From: Aestuariivirga sp.
GTDB lineage: Bacteria > Pseudomonadota > Alphaproteobacteria > Rhizobiales > Aestuariivirgaceae
DNA length: 64,000 nucleotides
Direction: 5' to 3'
NCBI RefSeq assembly: GCF_020252405.1
Contig: NZ_JADCDA010000036.1
Location: 1 to 64,000, forward strand
Below are positions 31,031-50,739 of this stretch, in pieces; position 1 is the stretch's first letter, and the number at the start of each line of letters is the position of its first letter. Both the position numbers and the translations under genes were made by a program. The notes below the pieces were generated by a model. It did not search any database. It was not told where the DNA came from and saw nothing but the letters and a program-made list of their open reading frames with translations.

Positions 31031-31051
31031 CGTTGGGATTGTGAGGTGAGT

Positions 31052-32185: not shown

Positions 32186-32206
32186 AACAAACAACCCCCT
32201 TCAGTC

Positions 32207-32410
32207 CGTCATCCCGGCGAAAGCCGGGACCCAGCTTTCCGCTGGGTTGATGCCCAAAGCGGGGCCCCGGCTTTCGCCGGGGTGACGGCATGAGGGGAGT
32301 GCGTGCCCGACGCCCGAAGCGGGGTTCCGGCTTTCGCCGGGGTGACGGCATGAGGGGAGTGCGTGCCCGACGCCCGAAGCGGGGTTCCGGCTTTCGCCGG
32401 GGTGACGGCA
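32207..32410. repeat. Family A palindromic repeat with an exact 60-bp tandem duplication
   Basis: A full element (GTCATCCCGGCGAAAGCCGG...CGGCTTTCGCCGGGGTGAC) is followed by two 60-base units that are identical at every position (starting GGTGACGGCATGAGGGGAGT), and the next ten bases begin a third. They produce the repeated peptide MRGVRARRPKRGSGF in the ORF track, which is an artefact and not part of the protease. Confidence 0.97.
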
Positions 32411-32430
32411 AGAAAACTGAAGTTGGAGAG

Positions 32431-34718: not shown

Positions 34719-35113
34719 GCGCGGGGCTGGCCCTGCAGGAGGCGATGCGCGCCCGGCTCATCGCCGATGGCGCGGTGACGGCGGCCCTGGGCGGCGCTTA
34801 CGTCTTTGACGAGGCGCCGCGCGGCGCGCCGCCGGCTTACGTGGAGTTCACCTCCCTCGACACGCGGGACTGGAGCACCTTCGGCGAGGGCGGCTTCGAG
34901 CATTTCGTGTCGCTGGCGGTGCGCTCCAACAGCCGCGGGCGGACCCAGGCGCAGGAAGTCTCGGCGGCTGTCGAGGCTGCCCTCGATGGCGCGGAACTCA
35001 CGCTGCCGGGCCACCGGCTGGTGAACCTGCGGCTGATGTTCTGGAGCGTGGCGAAGACCGGGCAGTATTTCGGCGCGTCGCTGCGCTTCCGCGCGGCGAC
35101 GGAACCTCTTTAG
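34715..35113 (+). CDS. DUF3168 tail terminator protein (GTA gp8-like)
   Basis: The 132-residue product, starting with GTG overlapping the previous stop, shows the DUF3168 pattern: ALQEAMRARLIADGAVTAALGG, PPAYVEFTSLDTRDWST, and HFVSLAVRSNSRGRTQAQEVSAAVEAAL. Tail terminators cap the tail tube on the head side. The track ORF merges it with out-of-frame upstream sequence. Confidence 0.88.
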   Translation: MSAGLALQEAMRARLIADGAVTAALGGAYVFDEAPRGAPPAYVEFTSLDTRDWSTFGEGGFEHFVSLAVRSNSRGRTQAQEVSAAVEAALDGAELTLPGHRLVNLRLMFWSVAKTGQYFGASLRFRAATEPL

Positions 35114-35122
35114 GAGAGAGAC

Positions 35123-35536
35123 ATGGGTGCTCAGAAAGGGCGTGACCTGCTGCTCAAACTCGATGCGGCGGGAATGGGAAGCTTTGCCGCGGTGGCGGGC
35201 TTGCGCAGCAATCAGATCAGCTTCAACGCTGGGACGGTGGATGCGACGAGCCAGGAATCCGCCAGCCAGTGGCGCGAGCTGCTCGGCGGCGCCGGGATCA
35301 AGTCGGCGTCGATCCGCGGTTCCGGCATCTTCAAGGATGCGGCCTCGGATGCGGCGATCCGGTCGCTGTTCTTTGCCGGAACCATCCGCAACTGGCAGGT
35401 GGCGGTGCCGGATTTCGGCACGCTGACCGGGCCGTTCCAGATCGCCAGCCTCGAATTCGGCGGCCGGCACGACGGCGAGGTGAGTTTCGATCTCGCGCTC
35501 GAGTCGGCGGGCGAAATCACCTTCGCGGGCGTCTGA
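35123..35536 (+). CDS. Major tail tube protein (GTA gp9-like)
   Basis: This 137-residue tube subunit of the TP901-1/GTA family has MGAQKGRDLLLKLDAAG at the N-terminus, LRSNQISFNAGTVDATSQES and RELLGGAGIKSASIRGSGIF in the centre, and a closing block ESAGEITFAGV. AGGAGAG lies eight bases before the ATG. It is expected to stack as hexamers. Confidence 0.92.
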   Translation: MGAQKGRDLLLKLDAAGMGSFAAVAGLRSNQISFNAGTVDATSQESASQWRELLGGAGIKSASIRGSGIFKDAASDAAIRSLFFAGTIRNWQVAVPDFGTLTGPFQIASLEFGGRHDGEVSFDLALESAGEITFAGV

Positions 35537-35537
35537 C

Positions 35538-35852
35538 ATGGCCAATGCACACCGGGGCGAGATCGAGGCCGAACTCTCCCACACGCGCTACGTCCTGTGC
35601 CTCACGCTGGGCGCGCTGGCCGAGCTCGAATATGCCTATGGCGGGGAGGACCTGATCGCCATCGCGCAACGCTTCGAGGCGGGCAAGATCTCCGCCACCG
35701 ATGCGATCCGCGTGATCGGCGCGGGGCTTCGCGGCGGCGGCAACGCCATCAGCGACGAGGAGGTGGCGGCGATGACGGCGGAGGGCGGCGCACAGGGCTT
35801 CCTGTCCATCGTCGTGCGTCTGCTGCGCGCCACCTTCGCGGGCGAGCCATGA
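35538..35852 (+). CDS. GTA gp10 family tail assembly chaperone-like protein
   Basis: This 104-residue protein matches the GTA-specific gp10 family: ANAHRGEIEAEL, LCLTLGALAELEYAYGGEDL, FEAGKISATDAIRVIGAGLRGGG. It resembles phage tail assembly chaperones that bind the tape measure. The next gene overlaps by four bases (ATGA). Confidence 0.88.
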   Translation: MANAHRGEIEAELSHTRYVLCLTLGALAELEYAYGGEDLIAIAQRFEAGKISATDAIRVIGAGLRGGGNAISDEEVAAMTAEGGAQGFLSIVVRLLRATFAGEP

Positions 35853-36028
35853 AATTCCCGTGGGAGAAGATGATGGCGACGGGGCTCGGCACGCTGCGCC
35901 TCAGCCCGCGCGACTTCTGGGCCGCGACGCCGCGCGAAATCGCGGCGGCCTTTCCGAAACGCCAGCCCGGCGCGCTGCCGCGCGACGTGCTGGAACGCCT
36001 GCTCGAACAATTTCCGGATGACACATGA
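35849..36028 (+). CDS. Small phage tail assembly chaperone (gp10.1-like)
   Basis: This is a 59-residue product, MKFPWEKMMATGLGTLRLSP with ending FPDDT. It fits the short TAC_6-type chaperone found between gp10 and the tape measure in GTAs (pattern FWAATPREIAAAF). The track shows it only as part of a longer shadow ORF; the true start is the ATG overlapping the gp10 stop. Its own stop overlaps the tape-measure start. Confidence 0.82.
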   Translation: MKFPWEKMMATGLGTLRLSPRDFWAATPREIAAAFPKRQPGALPRDVLERLLEQFPDDT

Positions 36029-36576
36029 GCAACAATTCCCTTGACCAGATGAGCGGCCAGGCAGACCAGCTGAGGGGCCAGCTGCAGGATATCGACCGGC
36101 TCGCCGAGAGCGTGGGCAGCCGCATGGTGACGGCCTTCGCCAGCGCCGCCACGCAGGGGCGCAACCTGTCCGACGTGCTGAGGGGCCTCGGACTGTCGCT
36201 CGCCCGCATGGCGCTGTCGGCGGCGCTGAAGCCCCTGGGATCGATGCTCGGCGGGCTGACCGGCGGATTGATGAAGAATGCCGCGGGCAATGCCTTTTCC
36301 GGCGGCCAGGTGATCCCCTTCGCCGAGGGCGGCATCGTCAATTCGCCCACGCTCTTTGCGATGCGCGGGGCAACCGGGCTGATGGGCGAGGCGGGGCCGG
36401 AGGCGATCATGCCGCTGGCGCGCGGGTCCGATGGCAAGCTGGGCGTGCGCGGCGGCGGCGGCGTGAATGTGACGGTCAACATCTCCACCCCCGATGCGCA
36501 GGGCTTCCACCGCTCCCAATCCCAGGTCTCCGCGCTGATCGCCCGCGCCGTGGCGCGCGGCCAGAGGAATTTGTGA
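36025..36576 (+). CDS. Short tail tape measure protein (GTA gp11-like)
   Basis: The 183-residue product has an N-terminal coiled-coil helix (MSGQADQLRGQLQDIDRLAESV), a hydrophobic central helix (LGLSLARMALSAALKPLGSML), and the phage tape-measure C-terminal signature GGQVIPFAEGGIVNSPTLFAMRG plus GLMGEAGPEAIMPLARG. Tape length sets tail length, so a protein this short predicts a very short tail as in the Rhodobacter GTA, far below a normal siphophage. Confidence 0.9.
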   Translation: MSNNSLDQMSGQADQLRGQLQDIDRLAESVGSRMVTAFASAATQGRNLSDVLRGLGLSLARMALSAALKPLGSMLGGLTGGLMKNAAGNAFSGGQVIPFAEGGIVNSPTLFAMRGATGLMGEAGPEAIMPLARGSDGKLGVRGGGGVNVTVNISTPDAQGFHRSQSQVSALIARAVARGQRNL

Positions 36577-36577
36577 C

Positions 36578-37201
36578 ATGAGCTTCGATGACGTGCGCTT
36601 CCCCACCGCCATCTCGCGCGGCAGTTCCGGAGGCCCGGAGCGCCGCACCGAGATCGTGGTGACGGGCTCGGGCGCCGAAGAGCGCAACAGCCGCTGGGCC
36701 TGCTCGCGCCGGCGCTACAACGCGGGCTTCGGGGTGAAGTCGCTCGATGACATTCACCGCGTGGTGGCCTTTTTCGAGGAGCGGCGCGGCAGGCTGCACG
36801 GCTTCCGCTGGAAGGACCCGCTCGACTTCAAGTCCTGCGCGCCCGCCGCGGCGGTGACGCCCCTGGACCAGGCGATCGGCACGGGCGACGGCGCGGCCGT
36901 CAAGTTCCAGCTGGTGAAGCGCTATGGCTCCGGCCTTCGCGACTATGTGCGCACCGTCACCAAGCCGGTGGCGGGGAGTGTGCGCGTTGCCGTGGGCGCC
37001 CAGGAGGTGACGGGCTTCAGCCTCGATGCGCTGACCGGCGTGGTGACGCTCGCAGCGGCCCCGCCCGCGGGCGCCGCGGTGACGGCGGGATTCTTCTTCG
37101 ACGTGCCGGTGCGTTTCGACACGGACGAACTGCGCATCAACCTCACGCAATTCGCCGGCGGGGATATTCCCGACATTCCCATTGTGGAGATCAGGACATG
37201 A
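36578..37201 (+). CDS. DUF2460 distal tail protein (GTA gp12-like)
   Basis: This 207-residue protein matches DUF2460: FDDVRFPTAISRGSSGGPERRTEIVVTGSG, ERNSRWACSRRRYNAGFGVKS, and FFEERRGRLHGFRWKDPLDF. It forms the ring at the distal end of the tail tube. The end DTDELRINLTQFAGGDIPDIPIVEIR is typical. It overlaps the following DUF2163 gene by four bases. Confidence 0.93.
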   Translation: MSFDDVRFPTAISRGSSGGPERRTEIVVTGSGAEERNSRWACSRRRYNAGFGVKSLDDIHRVVAFFEERRGRLHGFRWKDPLDFKSCAPAAAVTPLDQAIGTGDGAAVKFQLVKRYGSGLRDYVRTVTKPVAGSVRVAVGAQEVTGFSLDALTGVVTLAAAPPAGAAVTAGFFFDVPVRFDTDELRINLTQFAGGDIPDIPIVEIRT

Positions 37202-38079
37202 GAACGCTTCCCGGCGGCCTGGCCCAGCATCTTGCCGGCGGCGCCACCACGCTCTGCCATTGCTGGCGGGTGGCGCTCAGGGGCGGCGAGGTGCTGGGCT
37301 TCACCGACCATGACCGCGATCTTGTCATCGACGGCACGCTCTATGAGGCGGAGGCCGGCTTCACGGCGAGCGAGATCGAATCCTCGCTGGGATTGTCGGT
37401 GGACAACCTCGAGGCTTCGGGCGCTCTCTCCTCCGCGCGCCTGAGCGAGGCGCGGCTGAAGGCGGGGGACTTCGACAATGCCGCGGTGGAGCTGTGGCGC
37501 GTCAACTGGCAGGACGTGGGCCAGCGGGTGCTGCTGAAGAAGGGCCATGTGGGCGAGGTGACGCGTGGACGCGGCTTCTTCACCGCCGAGCTGCGCGGCC
37601 TGTCGCATGTGCTGAACGAGCCGCGCGGGCGGCTTTACCAATATGGCTGCGACGCGGTGCTGGGCGATCAGCGCTGCGGGGTCGATCTCGGCAACCCGGA
37701 TTTCGCCGCCGCGGTTCAGGTCAATGCCTGCCGCGAACGGCGGATTCTCGAGGTGAGCGGGGCGTCGGGCTTCGCCGCGGGCTTCTTCGCCCATGGCACG
37801 CTCGCCTTCGCCACCGGGGCCAATGCCGGGCGCGGCGGCGCCATCAAATTCCACCGCGTGGCCGGCGCGCTGGTGAGCATCGAGCTGTGGCAGCCGCTGC
37901 TGTTCGACGCCGCGGCGGGCGACCAGCTTGTTCTGCGGGCGGGCTGCGACAAGCAGTTTTCCACCTGCCGCGCGAAGTTCAACAACGCGGCCAATTTCCG
38001 CGGCTTCCCGCACATGCCGGGCGACGACTTCGTGCTGGGTTACGCCGTGAAAAAGAAAACGACGAAAGGAAGGGGCTGA
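37198..38079 (+). CDS. DUF2163 tail hub protein (GTA gp13-like)
   Basis: The 293-residue product matches the BR0599/DUF2163 family: LCHCWRVALRGGEVLGFTDHDRDL at the start, YQYGCDAVLGDQRCGVDL in the middle and GCDKQFSTCRAKFNNAANFRGFPHMPGDD near the end. Cysteines in these motifs bind an iron-sulfur cluster in related hub proteins. It overlaps both neighbours. Confidence 0.93.
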   Translation: MRTLPGGLAQHLAGGATTLCHCWRVALRGGEVLGFTDHDRDLVIDGTLYEAEAGFTASEIESSLGLSVDNLEASGALSSARLSEARLKAGDFDNAAVELWRVNWQDVGQRVLLKKGHVGEVTRGRGFFTAELRGLSHVLNEPRGRLYQYGCDAVLGDQRCGVDLGNPDFAAAVQVNACRERRILEVSGASGFAAGFFAHGTLAFATGANAGRGGAIKFHRVAGALVSIELWQPLLFDAAAGDQLVLRAGCDKQFSTCRAKFNNAANFRGFPHMPGDDFVLGYAVKKKTTKGRG

Positions 38080-38510
38080 TGCTGGCGCAGGACAGGATCG
38101 TTGCCGCGGCGCGCGGCTGGATCGGCACGCCCTATCTGCACCAGGCAAGCCTGAAGGGCGTGGGAGCGGATTGTCTGGGTCTGGTGCGTGGCGTGTGGCG
38201 GGAGGTGGTGGGCGGTGAGCCGGAAACGCCGCCTCCCTACCAGCCCGGCTGGGCCGAAATGGGCGGCGGCGAAGCCATGGCGGAGGCGGCGCGGCGGCAT
38301 CTGACGGAGATCGCCTGCACGGACTATCGCCCCGGCGACGTGCTGCTGTTCCGCTGGCGGGCGCAGCTGCCGGCCAAGCATTGCGGCATCGCGGCGCCCG
38401 GCGGCCTCATGGTGCATGCGCAGGAGGGCGCCGCCGTGGCGGAGGTGGCGCTGTCGGCCTGGTGGCTGCGCCGCCTGGCCTTCGCCTTTCGCTTTCCGGA
38501 AGGTGCGTGA
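38079..38510 (+). CDS. NlpC/P60 tail peptidase (GTA gp14-like)
   Basis: This 143-residue cell-wall peptidase has the catalytic cysteine in VGADCLGLVRGVW (around residue 30) and histidine in LPAKHCGIAAPGG (about 95). GTA gp14 proteins help the particle penetrate peptidoglycan during DNA entry. The start is the ATG overlapping the DUF2163 stop; the track ORF carries an upstream shadow. Confidence 0.92.
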   Translation: MLAQDRIVAAARGWIGTPYLHQASLKGVGADCLGLVRGVWREVVGGEPETPPPYQPGWAEMGGGEAMAEAARRHLTEIACTDYRPGDVLLFRWRAQLPAKHCGIAAPGGLMVHAQEGAAVAEVALSAWWLRRLAFAFRFPEGA

Positions 38511-41500
38511 TGGCGACCGTGGTTCTGCAGGCCGTGGGAACGGGCCTTGGCACGCTGCTGGGTGGCCCCGTGGGCGGCGTGATCGGCCGCGCGCTGGGCG
38601 CGGTGGCCGGGAGCTTCATCGACGAAAAGCTGTTCGGCGGCGACCGCACCGCCAAGGGCCCGCGGCTGGCGGACCTGCGCGTCATGGCCTCCACCGAGGG
38701 CGCGCCCATTGCGCGGCTGTGGGGGCGCATGCGGGTGGCGGGGCAAGTGATCTGGGCCACCGACTTCATCGAGAAAACGACGAGCGAGGGCGGCAAGGGC
38801 GGCGGGGGCGGGGGCGGCGGCGGCGGCGGCAAGGTGAAGACCTACAGCTATTCCGCCAGTTTTGCGGTTGCCCTGTGCGAGGGCGAGATCGACCGCATCG
38901 GCCGCGTCTGGGCGGATGGCCGGCCCTTCGACCTCAGCGGCGTGACGGCGCGCGTCCACACCGGCAGCGAAACCCAGGAGGCCGACAGCCTGATCGCCGC
39001 CATCCAGGGCCAGGGCATGGCGCCGGCCTATCGCGGGCTTGCCTATGTGGTGTTCGAGCAGCTGCCGCTGGAGGAGTTCGGCAACCGCCTGCCGCAGCTC
39101 TCCTTCGAGGTGCTGAAGGGGGTGGGCGGCATGGAAAGCCATGTCAGGGCGGTGAGCATCATCCCCGGCTCCACCGAGTTCGGCTATGACACCGAGATCG
39201 TGACGCGCCGGGCGGATGAGGGCGTGACGGCGCCCGAGAACGCCCATGCCTCCGCCGTGGACAGCGACTTCAGCGTGTCGCTGGATCAGCTGGAGGCAAG
39301 CTGCCGCAAGGCCGCCGCCGCCTCGCTGGTGGTGGCGTGGTTCGGCAACGACCTGCGCTGCGGGACGTGCCGCGTCCGGCCCGGGGTGGAAACCGCGGAC
39401 AAGCAGACCTCCCCCACCCTATGGAGCGTCAGCGGCATCGCGCGCGGCGCGGCGCATGTGGTGAGCCGGCGCGACGGCGGACCCGCCTTTGGCGGAACGC
39501 CTTCCGACGCCTCGGTGCTCCGCGCCATTGCGGAACTGAAGGCGCGGCGGCTGAAGGTGATGTTCCATCCCTTCCTGCTGATGGACATCGCACCCGGCAA
39601 TGCGCTGCCCGACCCTTATGGCGGGGCCGGACAGGCGGCCTACCCGTGGCGCGGGCGCATCACCGGCGCGCTGGCGCCGGGGCGCGCGGGATCGCCCGAC
39701 AAGACGCCTGCCGCGGCGGCCGAGGTCGCCGCCTTTGTGGGGCAGGCGCAGCCGCAGCATTTCACCGCGGCAGGCGCCGGCGTGACCTATTCCGGGCCGC
39801 CCGAATGGAGCTTCCGACGCATGATCCTGCATTATGCGAAGCTCTGCGCACTGGCGGGCGGGGTTGACGCGTTCCTGATCGGCAGCGAGCTGGCGGGACT
39901 GACCACGCTGCGGCGCGAGGCCAACGGCTTTCCCTTCGTTGCCGCCCTGATGCAGCTGGCGCAGGAGGTGAAGGCAATCCTGCCCGCCGCCCAGGTGTCC
40001 TATGGCGCGGACTGGAGCGAATGGTCCGGCCACCAGCCGGCCGACGGGACGGGGGACGTGTTCTTCCATCTCGATCCCTTCTGGTCGCTGCCGCAGGTGG
40101 GATTCATCGGCCTCGACAATTACCTGCCGATTGCCGACTGGCGCGACGGCGAGCGCCACCTTGACCGGCTGGCGGGGTGGACCTCGGTCTATGACACCGG
40201 CTACCTCAAGGCCAATATCGCCGGCGGCGAATATTTCGACTGGTATTACGCGAACGACGCCGACCGTGCGCTGCAGCAGCGCACGCCGATCAGCGACGTC
40301 GCCTGCGCCAAGCCCTGGGTGTTCCGCCGCAAGGACCTGAAGGGCTGGTGGATGAACCGCCATTACGACCGCCCGGGCGGCGTCGAAAGCGCGGTCCCCA
40401 CCGGCTGGACGCCGCAGTCGAAGCCCATCTGGTTCACCGAGGCGGGCTGCGCCGCGGTGGACAAGGGATCGAACGAGCCCAATGCCTTCATCGACGCCAA
40501 GTCGGCCGAGTCGCGCCTGCCGCCCTTCTCGAGCGGCGCGCGCGATGACCTGATGCAGGCCCGGCACGTGACGGCGCTTGATGAATTCTGGTCCGAGCCG
40601 GCCAACAATCCCGCCTCCGCGGTGGATGGACGGCGCATGGTGAATGCGGCGCGCATATTCCTCTGGGCCTGGGATGCGCGGCCCTTCCCGCAGTTTCCGG
40701 CGCGCGACGATGTGTGGGCCGATGCGCTGAACTACGAGCGCGGCCATTGGCTGAACGGGCGCGCCGGCATCGTGCCGCTGGGCCGCCTCGCCGCCGACGT
40801 GATGCAGAGCTACGGCCTTGACGATGTCGACGTTTCCGCCGTCGAGGGCCTGGTCGCGGGCTTCGCGATCGACCGCGTGATGTCGTGCCGCGACGCGCTG
40901 GAAGGGCTGATGCGGGCCATGGGCCTCGACGCGGTGGAAAGCGGCGGGACCCTGCGCGTCTTCATGCGGAAATCCGCCGCGATCACGGCGCTGACGCCCG
41001 ACGGGCTGGCGGAGGCGAAGCCGGAGGCCCCGCTCTACCGCATCACCAGGGCGCAGGAAACCGAGCTGCCGGCGGCGGTCAAGCTGTCCTACCTCGAAGC
41101 GGGCCTCGATTACCGCCTCGCCGTGGCGGAGGCGAAGCAGACGGGGGGCGCGGCGCGGCGCGACAGCCTCATCGAACTGCCCGCCGCGGTGACCCAGGCC
41201 GAGGCGCAAAAGCGGGCCCAGGTCGTGCTGCAGGAGGCCTGGGCGGGCCGCGAGACGGTGGAGCTCGCCCTGCCGCCCTCGCATCTCGCGCTGGAGCCGG
41301 GCGATGTCATTGCGCTCGGCCTCGATGACGGCAGCTACCTGCTGCGCATCGAGGAGATTGCCGAGGCCACGTCGCGGAAGATCCGTGGACGGAGCTTCGA
41401 CCGCGCCGTGCAGGAACCCGCCGATGCGCCGGACCGCGGCCAGTCCGGCGAGACGGCGGTGATTTACGGGCCGCCCGCCGTGCAGGCGATGGACCTCGCC

Positions 41501-42400
41501 CTGGCGGACGACAGCGTGCAGGCGCACGCGCCATGGATCGCGGCGGCGGCCACGCCGTGGCCGGGCGAATTGTCGCTCTACCGCCGGACCGGCAAGGCCA
41601 GCCTCAGTTTCAACCGCGTCATCGGCAGCGCCGCCAGCATGGGCCTGCTGCTGACGCCGCTTGCCGCGGGACCCCTGGGCTGCCTCGACCGCGGGCCGGG
41701 GGCCATTGTGCGGCTGAGCTCGGGCGCGGTGTTCTCGGCGGGCCTCGACGAGCTTCTGCAGGGGGCCAATCTTGCCGCTGTCGGTTCAATGGCCACGGGC
41801 TGGGAGATCGTCCAGTTCGGAGCCGCCGAGCTGGTCGGGGTGCAGAGCTGGCGCTTGTCGCTGCTGCTGCGCGGGCAGTTCGGCTCCGAACCCGAGATGC
41901 GGGCGCTGCGCCCGGCGGGCGAGCGCTTCGTGCTGCTGGATGCGGCCGTGGTGCAGCCGGTCCTGAGCCTGGCCCAGGCGGGGCTGGAGCAGACCTGGCA
42001 GGCGGGCCCGTCCGGGGGCGGCCTCGCCCAGGCGCAGGCCAGCGTCACGCTGCGCAGCGCGCTGCTCGGCCTGCGACCGCTCGCCCCGGTGCGGCTGAAG
42101 GCGGCGCGGCAGGGCGACGGCGTGCTGTTTAGCTGGATCCGGCGCAGCCGCATCGGCGGCGACAGCTGGGAGGCGAGCGAGATTCCGCTCGCCGAGGAGC
42201 GCGAGGCCTATCAAATCGACGTGCTCGCGGGGGCCGCGGTGCGGCGCAGCGTGACGGCGGGCGAGAGCCAATGGCTCTATCGCGCCGCCGACATCGCCGT
42301 CGACTTCGGGCCTGGGGCCAGCAGTTTCACGCTGCGCGTGGCGCAGCTTTCATCGACATTCGGCGCCGGCGCCGCTGTGCAGGAGACCTTCCATGTCTGA
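38510..42400 (+). CDS. GTA hub/host-specificity protein with TIM-barrel domain (gp15-like)
   Basis: This 1296-residue protein is the largest of the cluster. It opens with glycine-rich helix sequence (GLGTLLGGPVGGVIGRALG), then IARLWGRMRVAGQVIWATDF, a pure glycine run (GGKGGGGGGGGGGGK, about residue 100), a TIM-barrel GTA domain (about 420-720, including DWSEWSGHQPADGTGDVFFHL and KPIWFTEAGCAAVDKG), and the phage tail domain with VKLSYLEAGLDYRLA. The start is the ATG overlapping gp14. It probably forms the tail tip and binds recipients. Confidence 0.95.
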   Translation: MATVVLQAVGTGLGTLLGGPVGGVIGRALGAVAGSFIDEKLFGGDRTAKGPRLADLRVMASTEGAPIARLWGRMRVAGQVIWATDFIEKTTSEGGKGGGGGGGGGGGKVKTYSYSASFAVALCEGEIDRIGRVWADGRPFDLSGVTARVHTGSETQEADSLIAAIQGQGMAPAYRGLAYVVFEQLPLEEFGNRLPQLSFEVLKGVGGMESHVRAVSIIPGSTEFGYDTEIVTRRADEGVTAPENAHASAVDSDFSVSLDQLEASCRKAAAASLVVAWFGNDLRCGTCRVRPGVETADKQTSPTLWSVSGIARGAAHVVSRRDGGPAFGGTPSDASVLRAIAELKARRLKVMFHPFLLMDIAPGNALPDPYGGAGQAAYPWRGRITGALAPGRAGSPDKTPAAAAEVAAFVGQAQPQHFTAAGAGVTYSGPPEWSFRRMILHYAKLCALAGGVDAFLIGSELAGLTTLRREANGFPFVAALMQLAQEVKAILPAAQVSYGADWSEWSGHQPADGTGDVFFHLDPFWSLPQVGFIGLDNYLPIADWRDGERHLDRLAGWTSVYDTGYLKANIAGGEYFDWYYANDADRALQQRTPISDVACAKPWVFRRKDLKGWWMNRHYDRPGGVESAVPTGWTPQSKPIWFTEAGCAAVDKGSNEPNAFIDAKSAESRLPPFSSGARDDLMQARHVTALDEFWSEPANNPASAVDGRRMVNAARIFLWAWDARPFPQFPARDDVWADALNYERGHWLNGRAGIVPLGRLAADVMQSYGLDDVDVSAVEGLVAGFAIDRVMSCRDALEGLMRAMGLDAVESGGTLRVFMRKSAAITALTPDGLAEAKPEAPLYRITRAQETELPAAVKLSYLEAGLDYRLAVAEAKQTGGAARRDSLIELPAAVTQAEAQKRAQVVLQEAWAGRETVELALPPSHLALEPGDVIALGLDDGSYLLRIEEIAEATSRKIRGRSFDRAVQEPADAPDRGQSGETAVIYGPPAVQAMDLALADDSVQAHAPWIAAAATPWPGELSLYRRTGKASLSFNRVIGSAASMGLLLTPLAAGPLGCLDRGPGAIVRLSSGAVFSAGLDELLQGANLAAVGSMATGWEIVQFGAAELVGVQSWRLSLLLRGQFGSEPEMRALRPAGERFVLLDAAVVQPVLSLAQAGLEQTWQAGPSGGGLAQAQASVTLRSALLGLRPLAPVRLKAARQGDGVLFSWIRRSRIGGDSWEASEIPLAEEREAYQIDVLAGAAVRRSVTAGESQWLYRAADIAVDFGPGASSFTLRVAQLSSTFGAGAAVQETFHV

Positions 42401-43559
42401 TACGCCATTGCTTTCGCTCCCGCTGCTTGCCGCCGCGCAGGCGCAGAAGCACGTGACGCACAACGAGGCGCTGCTGCGGCTCGATGCGCTGATCCATCTC
42501 TCCATCATCTCGCGCAGCCTGGCGGCGCCCCCTGCCGCGCCCGCCGATGGCGACCGCTATCTCGTCGCCGCCGCGGCCACCGGCGCCTGGGCCGGGCAGC
42601 AGGGCCTGGTGGCGCTCGCCCAGGCCGGCGGCTGGGCGTTCCTCAACCCGCGCAAGGGCTGGCGCCTGTGGGTGGAGGCCGAGGCGCGTTTGCTTGTCTT
42701 CGACGGCGCGCAGTGGCGCGAGCCTGTCACCATCACCGAACTCGCCAACCTGCTGCGGCTCGGCGTCAATGCGGCGGCCGACGACGTCAACCGGCTGGCG
42801 GTCGCCTCGCCCGCCTCGCTGTTCAGCCACGCGGGCAATGACCACCGCCTGAAGCTCAACAAGAATGCCGCAGGCGACACCGCCTCGCTCATCTATCAGA
42901 CCGGCTGGTCCGGCCGCGCCGAAATGGGACTGAGCGGAAGCGACGATTTCCGCATCAATGTGAGCAGCGACGGCGCGGCGTGGAAGCCTGCCCTGGTGAT
43001 CGACCGCGCCAGCGGCGCGGTGAGCCTGCCCAACACGCCCCAGACCCAGCCCGCCGTGCTCTATGGCCAGTCGCTCGCCAGCCAGGGCCCGGGCTTTGCC
43101 GCCGACACCTATCTCGCGGGCTCCGCCATCGCCATTCCGCCCGGCCGGCTGAAGCCGGGCACGCGCTATGTGCTGACCTTCGACGCGAGCAAGACGGCGG
43201 CTGGCCTGGTCACGCCGGTCATCACGCTGCGCTTCGGATCAGGCGCCGCCGTGGCTGACCTGGCGCTGGCCGCCATGAATTTTCCGCCGCAGACCGCCGC
43301 CGCGGATGACGGACGGTTCACCCTCGAAGCCACCTTCCGCGCGACCGGAGCGGCCGCCGCGATACAGGCCGTCTCATCGCTTGCCCATACGGGCGCGTCC
43401 GGCGGGCTTTCCAACACTCCGGGTCCGGTGCGGTGCGCGGGCCCGGTCAGTTTCGACAGCGCAATCGCGAACGCAACCATCGGCGTTTCGGTGAATGCCG
43501 GAACGGGTGCGGCGTGGACCGTCGCCCTCGTTCAGGCCCGGCTGGAGAACCTCGCATGA
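42393..43559 (+). CDS. DUF2793 domain-containing putative fibre or spike protein
   Basis: The 388-residue product starts with the DUF2793 domain: LSLPLLAAAQAQKHVTHNEALLRLDALIHL, GDRYLVAAAATGAWAGQQGLVALAQAGGWAFLNP. The C-terminal half is a beta-rich region (GAAWKPALVIDRASGAVSLPNTP, GSAIAIPPGRLKPGTRYVLTF) of adhesin type. DUF2793 proteins occur in alphaproteobacterial phages and GTAs, where they are candidates for receptor-binding fibres or head spikes. It overlaps gp15 by eight bases. Confidence 0.82.
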   Translation: MSDTPLLSLPLLAAAQAQKHVTHNEALLRLDALIHLSIISRSLAAPPAAPADGDRYLVAAAATGAWAGQQGLVALAQAGGWAFLNPRKGWRLWVEAEARLLVFDGAQWREPVTITELANLLRLGVNAAADDVNRLAVASPASLFSHAGNDHRLKLNKNAAGDTASLIYQTGWSGRAEMGLSGSDDFRINVSSDGAAWKPALVIDRASGAVSLPNTPQTQPAVLYGQSLASQGPGFAADTYLAGSAIAIPPGRLKPGTRYVLTFDASKTAAGLVTPVITLRFGSGAAVADLALAAMNFPPQTAAADDGRFTLEATFRATGAAAAIQAVSSLAHTGASGGLSNTPGPVRCAGPVSFDSAIANATIGVSVNAGTGAAWTVALVQARLENLA

Positions 43560-43774
43560 CCACCATCGAGCGTGACGTGGGCGCGCTGGAGGCGCGCATG
43601 CAGACGGTGGAGCAGGAAATCCATGCCATGCGCCAGGACGTGCGCGAGATCCGCGACGCGCTCGTCACGGCGCGCGGCGGCTGGAAGACGCTGGGCCTGG
43701 TGATCGGCTTCTCGATCACCTTCGGCGCGCTGCTGTCGCGCGTGGCGCATGCGCTGCTGACCGGCAAAATCTAA
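43556..43774 (+). CDS. Small coiled-coil, single-pass membrane protein
   Basis: The 72-residue product has a coiled-coil N-terminal half (IERDVGALEARMQTVEQEIHAMRQDVREIRDAL) and one hydrophobic segment (LGLVIGFSITFGALLSRVAHALL). The layout resembles XhlA-type or holin-accessory proteins placed before phage lysis genes. It overlaps the DUF2793 gene stop and precedes a lysozyme and a holin, which supports a lysis role by context only. Confidence 0.72.
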   Translation: MTTIERDVGALEARMQTVEQEIHAMRQDVREIRDALVTARGGWKTLGLVIGFSITFGALLSRVAHALLTGKI

Positions 43775-43775
43775 A

Positions 43776-43818
43776 GCATTTTGAGGTCAAGCGGACACCG
43801 GTTGACCGTCGAAAATGC
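43776..43818. repeat. Dispersed palindrome, family D, before lysozyme gene
   Basis: GCATTTTGAGGTCAA and TTGACCGTCGAAAATGC are imperfect inverted arms around GCGGACACCGG. The sequence resembles a dispersed intergenic element of Rhizobiales; only one copy is in this window. It lies in the only gap of the 3' half of the GTA cluster. Confidence 0.6.
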
Positions 43819-43850
43819 GAACAAACAAAGAGACAGAACAGGAGACGGCA

Positions 43851-44519
43851 ATGCAGGTGACAGACGAGGGACTGGCGCTGATCAGGCGCTTCGAGGGTTT
43901 CAGGGCCAATGCCTATCGCTGCCCGGCCGGAGTGTGGACCATCGGCTATGGCCATACATCCCAGGCGGGGCCGCCGGCGGTGAAGCCCGGCATGCAGCTC
44001 GGCGAGGAAGAGGCGGACCGTATCCTCAAGGACGATGTGCGGCGTTTCGCCGACGAGGTGGGCGCGCTGCTGGCGCGCGAGGTGAGCGGCGCGCAGTTCT
44101 CCGCGCTTGTGAGCTTTGCCTATAATGTGGGCATTCCGGCCTTCCGCTCGTCCTCGGTTCTCAGGGCTGTGAATGCCGGTCGCTTCCATGACGTGCCGGC
44201 GCGGCTGCGGCTGTGGGTGAAGGGCGGCGGCCGCGTGCTGCCCGGCCTCGAACGGCGGCGCGCGGCGGAGGCCGAACTCTTCATGTCCGAGACCGCGCCC
44301 CAGGCAGGGCGCGGCGCGACGGGTGCGCCCAAGAGCGTGGAGACCGGGCGGCAGCTGCGCCATGCGGGCGCCGTGGTGGGCGGAACGGCGGTGGCGGTGA
44401 GCGCGGCACATGCGCTTCCCGTGTGGGTGAGTGTGGCGGTGCTCGTGGTGCTCGTGCTGGCGGCGGGGGCCTATGCCTCCTGGCGCTGGCGCAGGCCGGC
44501 GGCCGGGAAGGTGGCGTAA
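43851..44519 (+). CDS. GH24 lysozyme (endolysin) with C-terminal membrane segment
   Basis: The 222-residue product is a T4-type muramidase: the catalytic glutamate is in ALIRRFEGFRANAY, with GVWTIGYGHTSQAG, FSALVSFAYNVGIPAF and GRVLPGLERRRAAEAELF following. The start MQVTDEG has AGGAG before it; the track adds twelve codons. The last 60 residues carry a linker and one strong membrane helix (LPVWVSVAVLVVLVLAAGAYASW) then basic residues, unlike most soluble endolysins. The stop overlaps the holin ATG by one base. Confidence 0.92.
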   Translation: MQVTDEGLALIRRFEGFRANAYRCPAGVWTIGYGHTSQAGPPAVKPGMQLGEEEADRILKDDVRRFADEVGALLAREVSGAQFSALVSFAYNVGIPAFRSSSVLRAVNAGRFHDVPARLRLWVKGGGRVLPGLERRRAAEAELFMSETAPQAGRGATGAPKSVETGRQLRHAGAVVGGTAVAVSAAHALPVWVSVAVLVVLVLAAGAYASWRWRRPAAGKVA

Positions 44520-44995
44520 TGGTCCCGGCCGCCATGGTTGCGCAGCTGGCGCTGGGCCTCGTGCAGGGGCCGCTCGCCAAAATCCTCGACGCCTATGTGG
44601 CGGACGTCGAGCTGAAGCGCAAGCTTGCCGCCGAAATCGAGCGCCAGACGCTCGGCTATTTTCAGCGCACCGCGGAACTGGGCGCTGACGTGGTGATGGC
44701 CGAGACCACTTCGAACTCCTGGCTGAGCCGCAGCTGGCGGCCCTTGCTGATGCTGCTGCTGATGGGCTTTCTGCTGCTGATGGGCTTTCTGCTGCCGCTG
44801 GCGGACCTGATCGCCGGTCACCGCGTTGCCTTCGAGCCGCGGTGGCAGTCGTTGCCGGAAGGCTTCTGGCAATTCCTCACCGTGGGGGCGGGCGGCTATA
44901 TCGGCGGACGCTCAATCGAGAAGGTGGCGGCCGCGGTAACCCCGGCCAAACGCGCGGGATTTCCATTCACGCGCGGTTCAGATAGGAAGGGATAG
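44519..44995 (+). CDS. Holin of the three-membrane-segment type
   Basis: The 158-residue product has the Holin_3TMs family layout: an N-terminal amphipathic region (LVQGPLAKILDAYVADVELKRKLAAEIE), the conserved SNSWLSRSWRPLLMLLLMG, then membrane segments and the ending FWQFLTVGAGGYIGGRSIEKV. The membrane segment contains an exact tandem peptide LLMGFLLLMGFLL, encoded by a duplicated 18-base unit. The start overlaps the lysozyme stop. The next gene begins one base after its stop. Confidence 0.85.
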   Translation: MVPAAMVAQLALGLVQGPLAKILDAYVADVELKRKLAAEIERQTLGYFQRTAELGADVVMAETTSNSWLSRSWRPLLMLLLMGFLLLMGFLLPLADLIAGHRVAFEPRWQSLPEGFWQFLTVGAGGYIGGRSIEKVAAAVTPAKRAGFPFTRGSDRKG

Positions 44996-44996
44996 A

Positions 44997-45248
44997 ATGC
45001 CTGTCATGAACAAGACCCGCGCCAGGACTCTCGCCGCCGCTCTTCTGGCCACCGCCCTCTGGGTGCCGCCGACGCTGGCCCAGCAGGTGGCGCCGTCGGA
45101 CGCCGTGAAGCTGGCGCTGCAGGCTGTGCCGGGCGCCGAGGCTTTGGGCGTGAAGCTTGAGGGCGATCACTATGTCGTGCGCCTGAAGCAGGATGACGCG
45201 GTGATCCAGGTGCTGGTTGACGCCGCGACCGGTCAGGTGTCGCAATAG
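44997..45248 (+). CDS. feuN: PepSY-domain periplasmic protein, FeuN-like
   Basis: The 83-residue product has a signal peptide (ARTLAAALLATALWVPPTLAQQ) and one PepSY-like domain (SDAVKLALQAVPGAEALGVKLE...IQVLVDAATGQV). Its length and position just upstream of an OmpR-type regulator and kinase match FeuN of Sinorhizobium, a periplasmic inhibitor of the FeuQ kinase. AGGAAGGG lies before the start, inside the 3' end of the holin gene. A start nine bases later is possible. The name is by context and size. Confidence 0.65.
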   Translation: MPVMNKTRARTLAAALLATALWVPPTLAQQVAPSDAVKLALQAVPGAEALGVKLEGDHYVVRLKQDDAVIQVLVDAATGQVSQ

Positions 45249-45257
45249 GGACCGCGG

Positions 45258-45929
45258 ATGCGCCTTCTCGTCGTCGAGGATGATCCGGACCTCCGCCGCC
45301 AGCTGACCTCCGCGCTGGCGGATGCGGGCTACGCGGTCGATGCCGCGAAGGACGGCGAGGAAGGGCACTTCCTCGGCGACACCGAGCCTTATGACGCGGT
45401 GGTGCTCGATCTGGGCCTTCCCGTGATCGACGGCGTGAGCGTGCTCGAAAAATGGCGGCGCGCCGGGCGCAAGATGCCGGTGCTGATCCTGACGGCGCGC
45501 GACCGCTGGTCCGACAAGGTGGCGGGCTTCGACGCGGGGGCGGACGATTATGTCGCCAAGCCCTTCCACATGGAGGAGGTGCTGGCGCGCATCCGCGCGC
45601 TGCTGCGCCGCGCGGCGGGGCATGCCTCGGGCGAGCTCAGCGCCGGGCCGGTGGTGCTTGACACGAAAAGCGCCAGGGTGAGTGTCGGCGGCATGCCGGT
45701 GAAGCTCACCTCGCTGGAGTTCCGGCTGCTCTCCTACCTGATGCACCACAAGGGCAAGGTGGTGTCGCGCACCGAGCTCGTCGAGCATCTCTATGACCAG
45801 GACTTCGACCGCGACTCCAACACGGTGGAAGTCTTTGTAGGGCGGCTCAGGAAGAAGCTGGGGGCCGGCGTGCTGCACACCATCCGCGGCATGGGCTACA
45901 CGGTCACCGAGCCGGACGATGCGCCTTAG
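45258..45929 (+). CDS. feuP: OmpR-family response regulator, FeuP-like
   Basis: The 223-residue regulator has a receiver domain (LLVVEDDPDLRRQL; phosphoryl aspartate in AVVLDLGLPVIDG; lysine in DYVAKPF) and a winged-helix DNA-binding domain (KLTSLEFRLLSYLMHHKGKVVSRTELVEHLYD, VEVFVGRLRKKLG). With the upstream PepSY gene and downstream kinase it resembles FeuP, which activates cyclic-glucan export genes in rhizobia and was first linked to iron uptake. Its stop touches a 43-base repeat. Confidence 0.8.
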   Translation: MRLLVVEDDPDLRRQLTSALADAGYAVDAAKDGEEGHFLGDTEPYDAVVLDLGLPVIDGVSVLEKWRRAGRKMPVLILTARDRWSDKVAGFDAGADDYVAKPFHMEEVLARIRALLRRAAGHASGELSAGPVVLDTKSARVSVGGMPVKLTSLEFRLLSYLMHHKGKVVSRTELVEHLYDQDFDRDSNTVEVFVGRLRKKLGAGVLHTIRGMGYTVTEPDDAP

Positions 45930-45931
45930 AT

Positions 45932-45974
45932 CATGATCCGCAAAAGTGGAACCGGTTTTGCGGTAAGATCATGC
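45932..45974 (+). repeat. 43-bp inverted repeat, left copy (family C)
   Basis: CATGATCCGCAAAAGTGGAACCGG...TAAGATCATGC is identical, in reverse complement, to positions 47404-47446. It contains the ATG used by the downstream kinase ORF. A diverged copy lies at 17.6 kb. Confidence 0.97.
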
Positions 45975-47398
45975 TCAGGCGTTTGATCCGGCGCATGGTC
46001 TTTTGGTTCAGGCGGTTCCGCCCGAACCGAACATGCGCCAGCTCGCTGTCGGGCCGGCTCATTGTCTCGTCAGCGCTGGTGAGCGTGGTGCTGCTCGCCG
46101 CCACGGGCCTGCTGCTGGCGCGCCTGTTCACCGCCGCACTCGAACGCAATTTCGACCAGCGGCTGCACGCCGTGCTTGACGGGCTTCTGGCCAACATCGA
46201 GGTGACGGCGGAGGGTTCGCCGCGGCTTTCCAGCGCCATCGTCGACCCGCGCTTCGGCCTGCCGCTGTCGGGCTGGTACTGGCAGGTGACGCCGGTGGAC
46301 GCGCCGCCGGGCGTGACCGATCTGGCCTCGAATTCGCTGCTCGAACGGCGTTTGACCGTACCGCCTGATCTTGCCCGCGAGGATGGCGCTCAGGCCTTCT
46401 ATCTTGCCGACACGCGTGGCGTCACCCTGCGGGCCATCGGGCAGGCGTTCACGCTGCCGGGCAGCACGGGGGAATTCTCGGTGCTGGTGGCCGGGAACTA
46501 CGACGAGCTGTCGGCCGAGGTGCGCAGCTTCAACCGCGCGCTGGTGGCGAGCCTGGTGCTGCTGGCGCTGGGGCTGGCGCTCGCCGTCTTCGTGCAGGTG
46601 CGCTTCGGCTTGCGGCCGCTGCGGGCGATGCAGGCCGACCTGCTGGCGATCCGCCAGGGCGGAGCCACCGCGCTGAAAGGCGAATATCCCGCCGAGATCC
46701 GGCCCGTTGCCGAGGAACTGAACCTTCTCATCCAGTCCAATGCCGAGATCGTGGAGCGGGCGCGCACCCAGGTGGGCAACCTCGCCCATGCGCTGAAGAC
46801 GCCGCTCAGTGTGCTGACCAATGAGGCGGCGGGGCAGGCAACGCCGCTCGCCGCCAAGGTGACGGAGCAGACAGGCCTGATGCGCGGCCAGGTGAACCTC
46901 TATCTTGACCGCGCCCGGCGCGCCGCCCGCGCCCAGGGCCTGGGGGCCGTGACGGAGGTGAAGCCGGTGCTTGACGCGCTGGCCCGCACGCTGGCGCGCA
47001 TCAACCGCGACAAGGGCGTGAGCGTCACGGTCGACTGTCCCGATGGCCTCAGATTCCGCGGCGAGCGGCAGGACCTCGAGGAGATGGTGGGCAATCTGCT
47101 CGACAATGCCTGCAAGTGGGCGGCGAAGCGGGTGACCGTGTCGGCGCGGCCGCAGGGGGCGCAGGCGGGCCGCAGCCTGCTCGCCATCGCCGTCGAGGAC
47201 GATGGACCGGGCCTGCCGCCCGGCCAGCGCGCCGCGGCGCTGCAGCGCGGGCAGCGCCTGGACGAGACCAAGCCGGGCTCCGGACTTGGCCTTGCAATCG
47301 TCCGGGAGACGGCTGGCATGTATCATGGCGCAGTCGCGCTGGAGGACGCCGGGCTGGGCGGCCTGCGGGCCGTGCTGGCGCTGCCCTCCGCATCCTGA
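45971..47398 (+). CDS. feuQ: Sensor histidine kinase, FeuQ-like
   Basis: The 475-residue ORF has a basic N-terminus, membrane segment 1 (LIVSSALVSVVLLAATGLLLA), a periplasmic domain of about 110 residues, segment 2 (ALVASLVLLALGLALAVFVQV), a HAMP region, the phospho-accepting histidine in NLAHALKTPLSVLTNEA and ATP-binding boxes (NLLDNACKWA, VEDDGPGLPP, GSGLGLAIVRETAG). The first 20 residues are encoded by the family C repeat; a second in-frame ATG (MVFWFRRF) is also inside the repeat-derived region, so the true start is uncertain. Confidence 0.8.
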   Translation: MLRRLIRRMVFWFRRFRPNRTCASSLSGRLIVSSALVSVVLLAATGLLLARLFTAALERNFDQRLHAVLDGLLANIEVTAEGSPRLSSAIVDPRFGLPLSGWYWQVTPVDAPPGVTDLASNSLLERRLTVPPDLAREDGAQAFYLADTRGVTLRAIGQAFTLPGSTGEFSVLVAGNYDELSAEVRSFNRALVASLVLLALGLALAVFVQVRFGLRPLRAMQADLLAIRQGGATALKGEYPAEIRPVAEELNLLIQSNAEIVERARTQVGNLAHALKTPLSVLTNEAAGQATPLAAKVTEQTGLMRGQVNLYLDRARRAARAQGLGAVTEVKPVLDALARTLARINRDKGVSVTVDCPDGLRFRGERQDLEEMVGNLLDNACKWAAKRVTVSARPQGAQAGRSLLAIAVEDDGPGLPPGQRAAALQRGQRLDETKPGSGLGLAIVRETAGMYHGAVALEDAGLGGLRAVLALPSAS

Positions 47399-47403
47399 CT
47401 TGC

Positions 47404-47446
47404 GCATGATCTTACCGCAAAACCGGTTCCACTTTTGCGGATCATG
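47404..47446 (-). repeat. 43-bp inverted repeat, right copy (family C)
   Basis: GCATGATCTTACCGC...TTTTGCGGATCATG is the exact inverse of the left copy, starting six bases after the kinase stop and ending two bases before the stop of the convergent regulator gene. It can act as a terminator-like hairpin or as a recombination partner. Confidence 0.97.
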
Positions 47447-47448
47447 CT

Positions 47449-48438: not shown

Positions 48439-48630
48439 GCGGGGTGCGCACTCCTGTTTGAACCCCTTCTTGCGCAAAGTTTGAGCCTTGTCCACCAGCG
48501 TCATGCCGCAGGTGGAAAACGACATGGGTGAGATGGCCCGGTCGCATTCGTTATGGCGGGGTCGCAAACATCCGGGCGCTGCGGTTTCGGCTGGCGCAAT
48601 TTGCGGATATCTCAACGGAGCCCGTTTCCC

Positions 48631-49500
48631 ATGAATGCCCCGATCGCCAATACCGGATCCTCCACTGCGTCCTTCCTGCGCCTCTCCTCGATCGAGATCA
48701 CGCCGAAGCAGGTGGAGAAGCTCCCCCTGCTGAAGGAAAAGCTGGTTCCGGGGGCCCGCGTCTTCGTGGCGCTCATCGATGCGGGCGACGTCGCGGCCCA
48801 GATCGAGGCGGCGAGGCAGCTCAAGGCCGCGGGCTTCCAGCCCGTGCCGCATGTGCCGGCGCGGTTCGTCACGGACGAAGCAGACCTCCGCACCCGCATC
48901 AAGGCTTTCGCCGGGGCCGGCTCTGACACCATGCTGGTGCTGGGCGGCGGCGCGCCCGAGCCCATCGGCCAGTATGACGCGGCGATCCAGCTGATGCGGA
49001 CGGGCGTGTTCGAGGCCAATGGCGTCAGGTCGCTGGGCATCGCCGGCCACCCGGAAGGCAACCCCGACATCGCCAGGGCGCATGGCGAGGCCGCGCTGAT
49101 GAACGCGCTGAAGGAAAAGCAGGCCTATCTCAGGGCCAATGGCCTTCAAGGCTTCATCGCCACGCAGTTCCTGTTCGAGGTGGGCCCGGTGACGGAATGG
49201 GCGAAGACGCTGCGCGCCGAAGGCATCGATCTTCCCATCCATGTGGGCATTCCCGGCCCGGCGACCATCAAGACGCTGGTGAAATACGCCGCCATGTGCG
49301 GCGTGGGCAACTCCGCCCGCTTCATCCGCAAGCAGGCCCTGAACATCGCCAGGCTGCTGAGCGTCAGCACGCCGGACGATTTCGTGGCCGGGCTTGCGCA
49401 GGTGCATTACGGCCAGCCGGAGCTGGGCATCGCCGGCCCGCACCTCTATCCGTTCGGCGGGTTCGACAAGCTGTTCGACTGGATGAAAACGGTGACGTAA
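48631..49500 (+). CDS. Methylenetetrahydrofolate reductase-like protein
   Basis: The 289-residue product has the MTHFR fold: RLSSIEITPKQVEKLPLL, VPGARVFVALIDAGDV, LGIAGHPEGNPDI and FIATQFLFEVGPVTEWAKTL, with PIHVGIPGPATIKTLVKYAAMCGVG near the end. Proteins of this type are encoded beside sarcosine and dimethylglycine-oxidising systems and handle the methylene-THF those enzymes make. CGGAG lies upstream of the chosen ATG. It diverges from the GlxA-type regulator. Confidence 0.87.
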   Translation: MNAPIANTGSSTASFLRLSSIEITPKQVEKLPLLKEKLVPGARVFVALIDAGDVAAQIEAARQLKAAGFQPVPHVPARFVTDEADLRTRIKAFAGAGSDTMLVLGGGAPEPIGQYDAAIQLMRTGVFEANGVRSLGIAGHPEGNPDIARAHGEAALMNALKEKQAYLRANGLQGFIATQFLFEVGPVTEWAKTLRAEGIDLPIHVGIPGPATIKTLVKYAAMCGVGNSARFIRKQALNIARLLSVSTPDDFVAGLAQVHYGQPELGIAGPHLYPFGGFDKLFDWMKTVT

Positions 49501-49525: not shown

Positions 49526-49612
49526 TCGTCACCCAGGCAAAAGCCGGGGCCCAGCTTTGGGCGGCGGAGATTGTGGAAAGCTGGGTCCCGGCTTTCGCCG
49601 GGATGACGGCAA
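49526..49612. repeat. Family A palindromic repeat, copy left of GIY-YIG gene
   Basis: AAAGCCGGGGCCCAGCTTTG...AAAGCTGGGTCCCGGCTTTCGCCGGGATGAC. Over 71 bases it matches the copy at 50.0 kb with one mismatch, in the same orientation. Confidence 0.95.
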
Positions 49613-49620
49613 GGCGGGGG

Positions 49621-49935
49621 CTAGTCTTCAACTAAGGTCGCAAGGGCATCGATCTCATCGTGAAGGTCGCGCCAGCCGGGATTCATTTTCTCGATCAGTT
49701 CTATCTTCCAGTTACGTTTCCACTCCTTGATCCGTTTCTCGCGGAGAATCGCCGACTCCATTGTTTGTCGATGCTCGTACCAGACCAAAGTGTGGACTTT
49801 GTACTCCGATGTAAAACCGGGGGTCGTTCCGTTCTTGTGGGCGCAGACACGATCATAAAGTCCACTCGTCACTCCGACATAGAGTGTGCCGCGATAGCGG
49901 CTCGCCATGATGTAGACGGCTGGATATTTCTCCAT
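49621..49935 (-). CDS. Small GIY-YIG nuclease family protein (COG2827-like)
   Basis: The 104-residue product is a minimal GIY-YIG domain: AVYIMASRYRGTLYVGVTSGLYDRVCAHKNG holds the two tyrosines and the arginine, and MESAILREKRIKEWKRNWK contains the metal-binding glutamate. It has no DNA-recognition domain. Its base composition is visibly lower in GC than every neighbour, a sign of transfer. It is framed by two nearly identical repeat copies. The family's cellular role is unsettled. Confidence 0.92.
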   Translation of the reverse strand: MEKYPAVYIMASRYRGTLYVGVTSGLYDRVCAHKNGTTPGFTSEYKVHTLVWYEHRQTMESAILREKRIKEWKRNWKIELIEKMNPGWRDLHDEIDALATLVED

Positions 49936-50031
49936 GCTGCATGGTAGCGCGCTTGTTCGGGTTGAGAAAAGCTGTGTCGAAGGGAAACATCGATTGCGCT
50001 GACCAAGTGGAGTTGGACGCCACCACCGTCT

Positions 50032-50119
50032 GTCACCCCGGCGAAAGCCGGGGCCCAGCTTTGCGCGGCGGAGATTGTGGAAAGCTGGGTCCCGGCTTTC
50101 GCCGGGATGACGGCTAAGG
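50032..50119. repeat. Family A palindromic repeat, copy right of GIY-YIG gene
   Basis: CACCCCGGCGAAAGCCGGGG and CCCGGCTTTCGCCGGGATGAC are the inverted arms. The core differs from the left copy by one base in 71. It ends 17 bases from the soxG stop codon. Confidence 0.95.
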
Positions 50120-50136: not shown

Positions 50137-50739
50137 TTACCCCGGAACCTCCTGCGCGCCGAACAGCTTCAGCTTTGCAGGCGCCCTGGCCGTGGCGCAG
50201 AGGAAGTTCCAGGCGTGGTGCGCGTAGGAGCGGAAGACGTAGATGTCGAAGACGTTGTCCTCCACCACGTCCAGCAGTGCCGCGATTTCGGCGTAGCGCA
50301 TGCGGCGGCAGCAGCCCGGCATATATTCCTTGTCGAGCAGGTCGAGCGCGGCGCCCTTCATGAGCACCTCGCGGCAGCCTTCGCCTTCCAGGCGGATGAT
50401 GGCGCGCATGTCGGAAACGTCCACGGCCAGCGCGTGAATGCCCGTGAGCGCCTCCCGCAGGCTGGCGAGCAGCTCATGCGCGCGCGCCCGTGTGCCGAGG
50501 ATCAGCCACTGGTCAACCGACAGCCACAGAACCCTGATGTCGCCCCATGAGGCGGAGGTGCGGGGTTTGGTGGGAAGATCGACGCCGAGCACGCCCCTCG
50601 CGGCGGCCATGAAGGCCGCATCCGTGCCGAGGCCGCGCAGGTCGATCATGCCGCGTCCGGCGATCTCGCGGATCGAGACCGAGAGGCCGTGGGGCTCGGC
50701 AAGGCCGGCGAGCGGCGATTGATACGAGAGCTCAGACAT
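50137..50739 (-). CDS. soxG: Sarcosine oxidase gamma subunit
   Basis: The 200-residue protein matches SoxG: SPLAGLAEPHGLSVSIREIAGRGMIDLRG, VLWLSVDQWLILG, and VFRSYAHHAWNFLC near the end. It is a structural subunit of the heterotetrameric enzyme, related to the aminomethyltransferase fold. It is last of the soxBDAG operon, overlapping soxA by eight bases. Confidence 0.93.
   Translation of the reverse strand: MSELSYQSPLAGLAEPHGLSVSIREIAGRGMIDLRGLGTDAAFMAAARGVLGVDLPTKPRTSASWGDIRVLWLSVDQWLILGTRARAHELLASLREALTGIHALAVDVSDMRAIIRLEGEGCREVLMKGAALDLLDKEYMPGCCRRMRYAEIAALLDVVEDNVFDIYVFRSYAHHAWNFLCATARAPAKLKLFGAQEVPG

Follow-up and report, generated by a model that had tools for sequence, protein, structure and literature searches.

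A gene for a small GIY-YIG nuclease, enclosed by palindromic repeats, was identified in the window, i.e. the whole 64,000-nt stretch of DNA that was analysed here. We consider it probable that this locus is an autonomous mobile element with the nuclease as its sole enzyme, and that REP dimers without a gene derive from it as a non-autonomous form; that the DNA is cut, where it is cut and how it is joined are inferred. As the combination of gene and hairpins is found again in many bacteria, the nuclease is a strong candidate for the enzyme, so far missing, that mobilises a widespread class of bacterial palindromic repeats.

The nuclease gene and the family A elements of the window

The nuclease gene, the putative mobility gene of the unit, is located on the minus strand (49621-49935) and is the only gene inside the arms. 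It is enclosed by a left family A element (49528-49607, arms 49528-49558 and 49577-49607), lying downstream of the gene, and by a right one (50032-50111, arms 50032-50062 and 50081-50111), lying upstream, both of which are CGTC-tagged REP dimers. The locus sits between convergent genes, namely a gene resembling methylenetetrahydrofolate reductase (48553-49500, plus strand) and soxG (50137-50739, minus strand). An earlier note on this DNA had described a lower-GC, 104-residue nuclease between two family A copies, which is borne out by the PF01541 match of the 104-aa protein (E=2e-12) and by a GC content of 0.52 for the gene as compared to 0.67 for the window (0.66-0.67 in the surroundings). Likewise, both copies do have the same orientation and are 504 nt apart. 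Their single difference in 71 bases holds for 49540-49610 against 50044-50114, and three mismatches (49535, 49539, 49560) are found over the full 80 nt. One point has to be amended: direct dimers do flank the gene, but the essential layout consists of inverted arms that enclose it, with the tags mostly pointing outward. The two direct dimers of the window are a doubled version of this inverted-arm layout.

In detail, the family A arm reads CGTCATCCCGGC-GAAA-GCCGGGAC-CCA. Each element of about 80 nt consists of two inverted arms and forms a near-perfect long hairpin when folded as single-stranded DNA, with energies of -31 and -41 kcal/mol (z -6.6 and -8.7) for the two elements. The window contains 10 occurrences of the 21-nt arm core, where 0 are expected from shuffled sequence, and the 2.87-Mb genome contains 72, compared to 0 for the reversed pattern. 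This genome carries one copy of the unit of the window's type. As the earlier note had claimed, family A is also present in the GTA cluster. A gene-less dimer precedes the portal domain (30945-31027), and a gene-less cluster is located between the portal and the major capsid gene (32208-32406), consisting of a dimer (32208-32286) and two further arms (+) at 32326 and 32386. The GTA-like cluster itself spans 28000-46000 and includes portal, major head, glycoside hydrolase and tail protein genes, with the family A dimers lying between its genes.

Regarding the protein, its fold with the catalytic Tyr, Arg and Glu places it in the GIY-YIG superfamily. The predicted active site residues Y19, G21, R29, H33, E66 and K70 are invariant in 24 relatives, and Y8 and N85 are conserved in at least 90%. 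The AlphaFold model has a pLDDT of 93.7, and the nearest folds are UPF0213 BH0048, Slx1 and the UvrC N-terminal domain. Because of the invariant active site and the proximity of this confident model to these three folds, an enzyme acting on branched or hairpin DNA is plausible but unproven.

Palindromic arms across the relatives of the nuclease

Relatives were drawn from the genus and the order, from GTDB contigs, from 299 Pseudomonadota genomes and from plasmid records. Each gene was given a flank score, namely that of the best inverted repeat formed between its upstream and downstream 300-350 nt, with a cut-off of 14 that was picked after the data had been seen. Palindromic inverted arms were found on both sides of 85 out of 112 (76%) non-duplicate relatives with available flanks. 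In the controls, flanking inverted repeats were detected for 2/214 shifted positions in the same loci, for 1/14 annotated neighbour genes, for none of 30 uvrC genes and for none of 17 more distant YhbQ-type genes (gammaproteobacterial and others), and shuffled flanks never scored above 12. Compared with the uvrC and YhbQ-type genes together (0/47), the difference is highly significant (Fisher p=2e-21), so that the association proposed in the earlier note extends to other genomes. About a quarter of the family genes have no clear arms; some of these are decayed and some are near contig ends.

The palindromes are highly diverse in sequence, and most of them start with GTCA or GTCG at the outer end (66/85, for the upstream arm as aligned). 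Examples are GTCACCCCAGCGAAAGCTGGGG and GTCATTCCCGCGAAGGCGGGAATCC, a dRS3-like repeat in N. gonorrhoeae, TGTCATTCTGAGTGAAACGAAGAATCTC in Planktothrix and TTGTCATCCCGAGGAACGAGGGATC in Spirosoma. With a strict hairpin detector, an outward-facing arm was found upstream in 62/85 and downstream in 60/85 cases, and one outward arm on each side was the commonest layout. In the case of Rhizobium sp. CIAT894 (L151), long arms of about 98 nt surround the GIY-YIG gene and an IS4-family transposase adjoins.

Within the genus and order, 61 of 75 nuclease genes are flanked. Between these genomes, arm similarity correlates with protein similarity (Spearman 0.63, reached in 0/2000 permutations). When arms were swapped among paralogues within a genome, using the 18 genomes with at least two flanked paralogues, the null value was 0.19 (sd 0.10) and 0/5000 swaps were as high as observed. 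A weaker correlation is found phylum-wide (r=0.38, 0/2000). Two genomes, G001 and G018, even carry three nucleases each, every one with its own arm type. It is the nuclease lineage, not the genome, that the palindrome follows. Since arm similarity tracks the nuclease lineage, the arms are part of the unit. It should be added that gene and arms are inherited together, which alone would give rise to part of this correlation.

To describe arm abundance, two arm types (GGC and CAGC) were counted in 61 genomes. The median count of GGC arms was 52 in genomes with a GGC-armed nuclease and 1 in those without (p=2e-5), and that of CAGC arms was 14 with and 0 without a CAGC-armed nuclease (p=4e-10). In genus g32 of the same order, arm counts of 258, 129, 69, 37, 25, 28, 0 and 0 go along with 6, 7, 2, 2, 1, 0, 1 (weak) and 0 nuclease genes, respectively (rho 0.84). 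These abundance tests were not corrected for phylogeny, and three genomes (G008, G017, G332) have arms without a detected nuclease.

Dispersed copies, unoccupied sites and competing explanations

Several copies with the same ends and unrelated flanks in one genome, as expected of a mobile element, were observed in G230 (four) and G114 (several). In the case of G230, which belongs to the same order, four full dispersed copies are 84-91% identical; a fifth copy is truncated and shares 79-86% identity with these four. Similarity starts at CTTCGTCAT and stops at ATGACGAAG, which are the arm ends, and the flanks beyond are mostly unrelated; most of these copies have a unit length of 496-517 nt. Further similar copies are the paralogous units of G005 (84% identical) and units on two contigs of one MAG (90% over 612 nt) and on two contigs of another (98% over 164 nt). 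A target duplication, as in DDE insertion sequences, was sought at 9 copies and not found, the longest common flank words being 0-4 nt without a consistent size. Two units of G230 (L304 and L305) have in common about 130 nt of upstream sequence that resembles another repeat (CCCACTCCGTCTCGGC..CCACCTCTCCCC), possibly a nested insertion. As to carriage by phages, no match was found in 50,697 phage records.

Unoccupied sites in close relatives were identified as well. Among the relatives compared, only Azospirillum lipoferum has an interrupted sufB-sufC operon: in strain 4B the unit lies between the two genes, which are 617 nt apart, whereas the gap is 87-129 nt without the unit in A. oryzae, A. 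ramasamyi and strain B510 (94-95% identical). At the Sphingobium fnrL locus, TomMM7A carries the unit; unoccupied sites were found in TomTYG64, TomTYG72 and TomTYG74, with only a solo palindrome in TomTYG64 and TomTYG74. The locus of the window itself lacks family A elements in G029 and G030 and holds one gene-less dimer in G035, so that the empty sites with a single repeat copy that the earlier note suggested looking for do exist, both here and in Sphingobium. The same note would have been refuted by the gene occurring at this locus without repeats; palindromes are present wherever a nuclease occupies the orthologous locus (G001, G006, G011, G018, G019). The gene has the opposite orientation in G001 and G019, and in G006 a different nuclease (about 50% identical) is accompanied by different palindromes. 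Because the gene DNA of G001 is 71% identical to that of the window and the flanks are 87-88% identical, sequence comparison suggests independent insertions at this locus; the inverted gene and the different nuclease are likewise consistent with insertion having happened repeatedly. Exact insertion points could not be resolved from the unoccupied sites of Azospirillum, Sphingobium and Sinorhizobium, where the intergenic sequence is too diverged.

These sites bear directly on the main rival explanation, which is homing. Here, REP dimers would spread by other means, and the nuclease would cut the spacer of its cognate gene-less dimer, whereupon its gene is copied in via arm recombination. Thus, the enzyme would move only its own gene, whereas an autonomous element would move REPs. 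The GIY-YIG fold is an established homing-endonuclease fold (I-TevI type), selfish spread is plausible in both cases, the gene is placed between two arms as though put into a dimer loop, and there are orthologous sites with a dimer (G035) or a solo palindrome (Sphingobium) and no gene; arms that match the nuclease are accounted for equally. On the other hand, the unit has neither an intron nor a conserved coding target, the enclosing palindromes are themselves high-copy, and the rise of arm copy number with nuclease number stays unexplained unless REP-rich genomes merely keep the gene. Furthermore, the unoccupied sites of G029, G030 and A. oryzae have no family A repeat at all, and the window gene is flanked by two whole dimers rather than two half-dimers. 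Homing is regarded as possible but unlikely.

A host function is considerably less probable still. In this case the nuclease would process REP hairpins or cruciforms in a Slx1-like or SbcCD-like clean-up, nearby arms would be regulatory and some other enzyme would move the REPs. The nearest folds would fit such a role, as would the annotation of E. coli YhbQ as ‘DNA damage response nuclease’, and YhbQ/UPF0213 (E. coli b3155, BH0048) is the nearest solved fold with an equal size. However, the YhbQ-type genes are precisely those without arms in the controls described above, and the window's nuclease is only about 34-45% identical to YhbQ-like genes. A YhbQ/UPF0213 orthologue group would be a conserved gene without flanking repeats, and the nuclease family is armed and patchy (89/299 Pseudomonadota genomes); its genes are frequently present in several copies and frequently interrupted by stop codons, which fits a mobile and not a housekeeping gene. 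Finally, although REPs do cluster in intergenic gaps and this locus lies in one between convergent genes, hardly any credence is left for REPs merely piling up beside any small, weakly selected intergenic gene, or for a gene carried along by REP-REP recombination, as almost no flanking arms turn up in the shifted-position, neighbour, uvrC and YhbQ-type controls taken from these loci and genomes, the arm type goes with the nuclease lineage and not with the genome, a match that is lost on swapping arms among paralogues, and copies end sharply at the arms, so that passive hitchhiking was rejected.

Returning to the autonomous element, its complete form would be the full arm-gene-arm unit of about 0.4-0.6 kb, and gene-less REP dimers would relate to it as REPINs do to RAYTs. 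The arms may extrude as hairpins or cruciforms while the DNA is single-stranded. The cognate nuclease would then recognise its own palindrome and cut next to the GTCA tag, after which the freed or nicked unit could be copied to a new site by the replication or repair machinery of the host, without an obvious target duplication. GIY-YIG enzymes hydrolyse DNA and, to our knowledge, are not known to rejoin it; for this reason a host joining pathway must be assumed. No cleavage, excision or transposition was observed, and that the enzyme cuts the arms is an inference. The proposal of the earlier note that a small nuclease mobilises or amplifies such palindromes is consequently supported as far as association, matched arms, abundance, dispersed copies and unoccupied sites are concerned, but cutting of the palindrome has not been shown.

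Known repeat systems and a possible second enzyme-repeat pairing

Family A fulfils the description of CGTC-tagged REPs (a CGTC or TGTC/CCTC tag, a stem of 8-9 bp, a loop of 4-5 nt, a CCA tail and head-to-head dimers), as it has a CGTC tag, an 8-bp stem, a GAAA loop, a CCA tail and head-to-head dimers (PMC3733652). CGTC REPs are spread over several phyla and include Neisseria dRS3 and Rickettsia RPE-4/RPE-6 (Di Nocera et al. 2013, PMC3733652). They are not associated with transposase genes and apparently have no dedicated transposase, and what mobilises them was asked in that same study (PMC3733652). Here, in contrast to that absence, such repeats enclose the gene of a nuclease. A 2025 paper on RepRanger mentions neither transposases nor nucleases (PMC12306157).

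The REP/REPIN and RAYT (TnpA_REP) system is similar in that short tagged palindromes form dimers as the non-autonomous form, the enzyme gene lies between the same palindromes, the palindrome type is specific to the enzyme lineage and no obvious target duplication is seen. It differs in its enzyme, an HUH tyrosine (Y1) transposase as opposed to a GIY-YIG nuclease, and in its tag (GTAG as opposed to (C)GTCA), so that neither defining feature is present here, and the units described here are often multi-copy per genome. With insertion sequences and MITEs that depend on DDE transposases, the unit has in common terminal inverted repeats, one ORF, dispersed copies and gene-deleted derivatives; unlike them, it has no transposase domain of any known class, besides lacking a target duplication. 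The earlier note knew of no description of a GIY-YIG nuclease paired with palindromic repeats, and our literature search likewise found no report, with preprints and many subscription journals outside the search, and an earlier description remains possible.

A different palindrome class was found around the alphaproteobacterial YhbQ-like genes (L182-L199, L230-L238), which had been intended as a negative control: 13/18 are flanked, and so are 8/9 of the nearest YhbQ-like genes. This control was replaced by the more distant YhbQ-type genes and uvrC. The palindromes read CTGAGCTTGTCGAAGG in some genomes and CTCAGGATGAGG..CCTTCGAGGC in others, and a type CCTGAGCTTGTCGAAGG occurs as well. These results point to a second small GIY-YIG subfamily, YhbQ-like and alphaproteobacterial, as a second enzyme-repeat pairing.

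We lean slightly towards the more general view that GIY-YIG nucleases form a class of enzymes that mobilise palindromic repeats in bacteria. In this view, at least two subfamilies of the enzyme would be matched to two superfamilies of repeats, a GTCA-tagged one (CGTC REPs; Neisseria, Aeromonas, Cyanobacteria, Bacteroidota) and one of the CTGAG..CGAAGG type (alphaproteobacteria). If this is true, such enzymes would account for much of the dispersed bacterial palindromic DNA that has no known transposase. CGTC REPs would gain a specific, testable enzyme, and enzyme-palindrome pairs could be predicted one by one. Hydrolytic GIY-YIG cleavage would be a candidate mobility chemistry added to those known for bacterial elements, and a role would be found for many small genes that bear no annotation beyond ‘GIY-YIG nuclease family protein’ or ‘excinuclease ABC subunit C’.

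The genome of the window has a second GIY-YIG gene (contig C35, locus L002), whose arms resemble the family B palindromes of the window. These are inverted repeats at 158-241 and, as a second copy, at 21885-21967, and their layout is like that of the arms around this second gene. Another dispersed repeat of the window, GATCCGCAAAAGTGGAACCG..TTTTGCG..AAGATCATGC, is located at 17598-17653, 45929-45984 and 47398-47448 in direct and inverted copies and is also found in L004.
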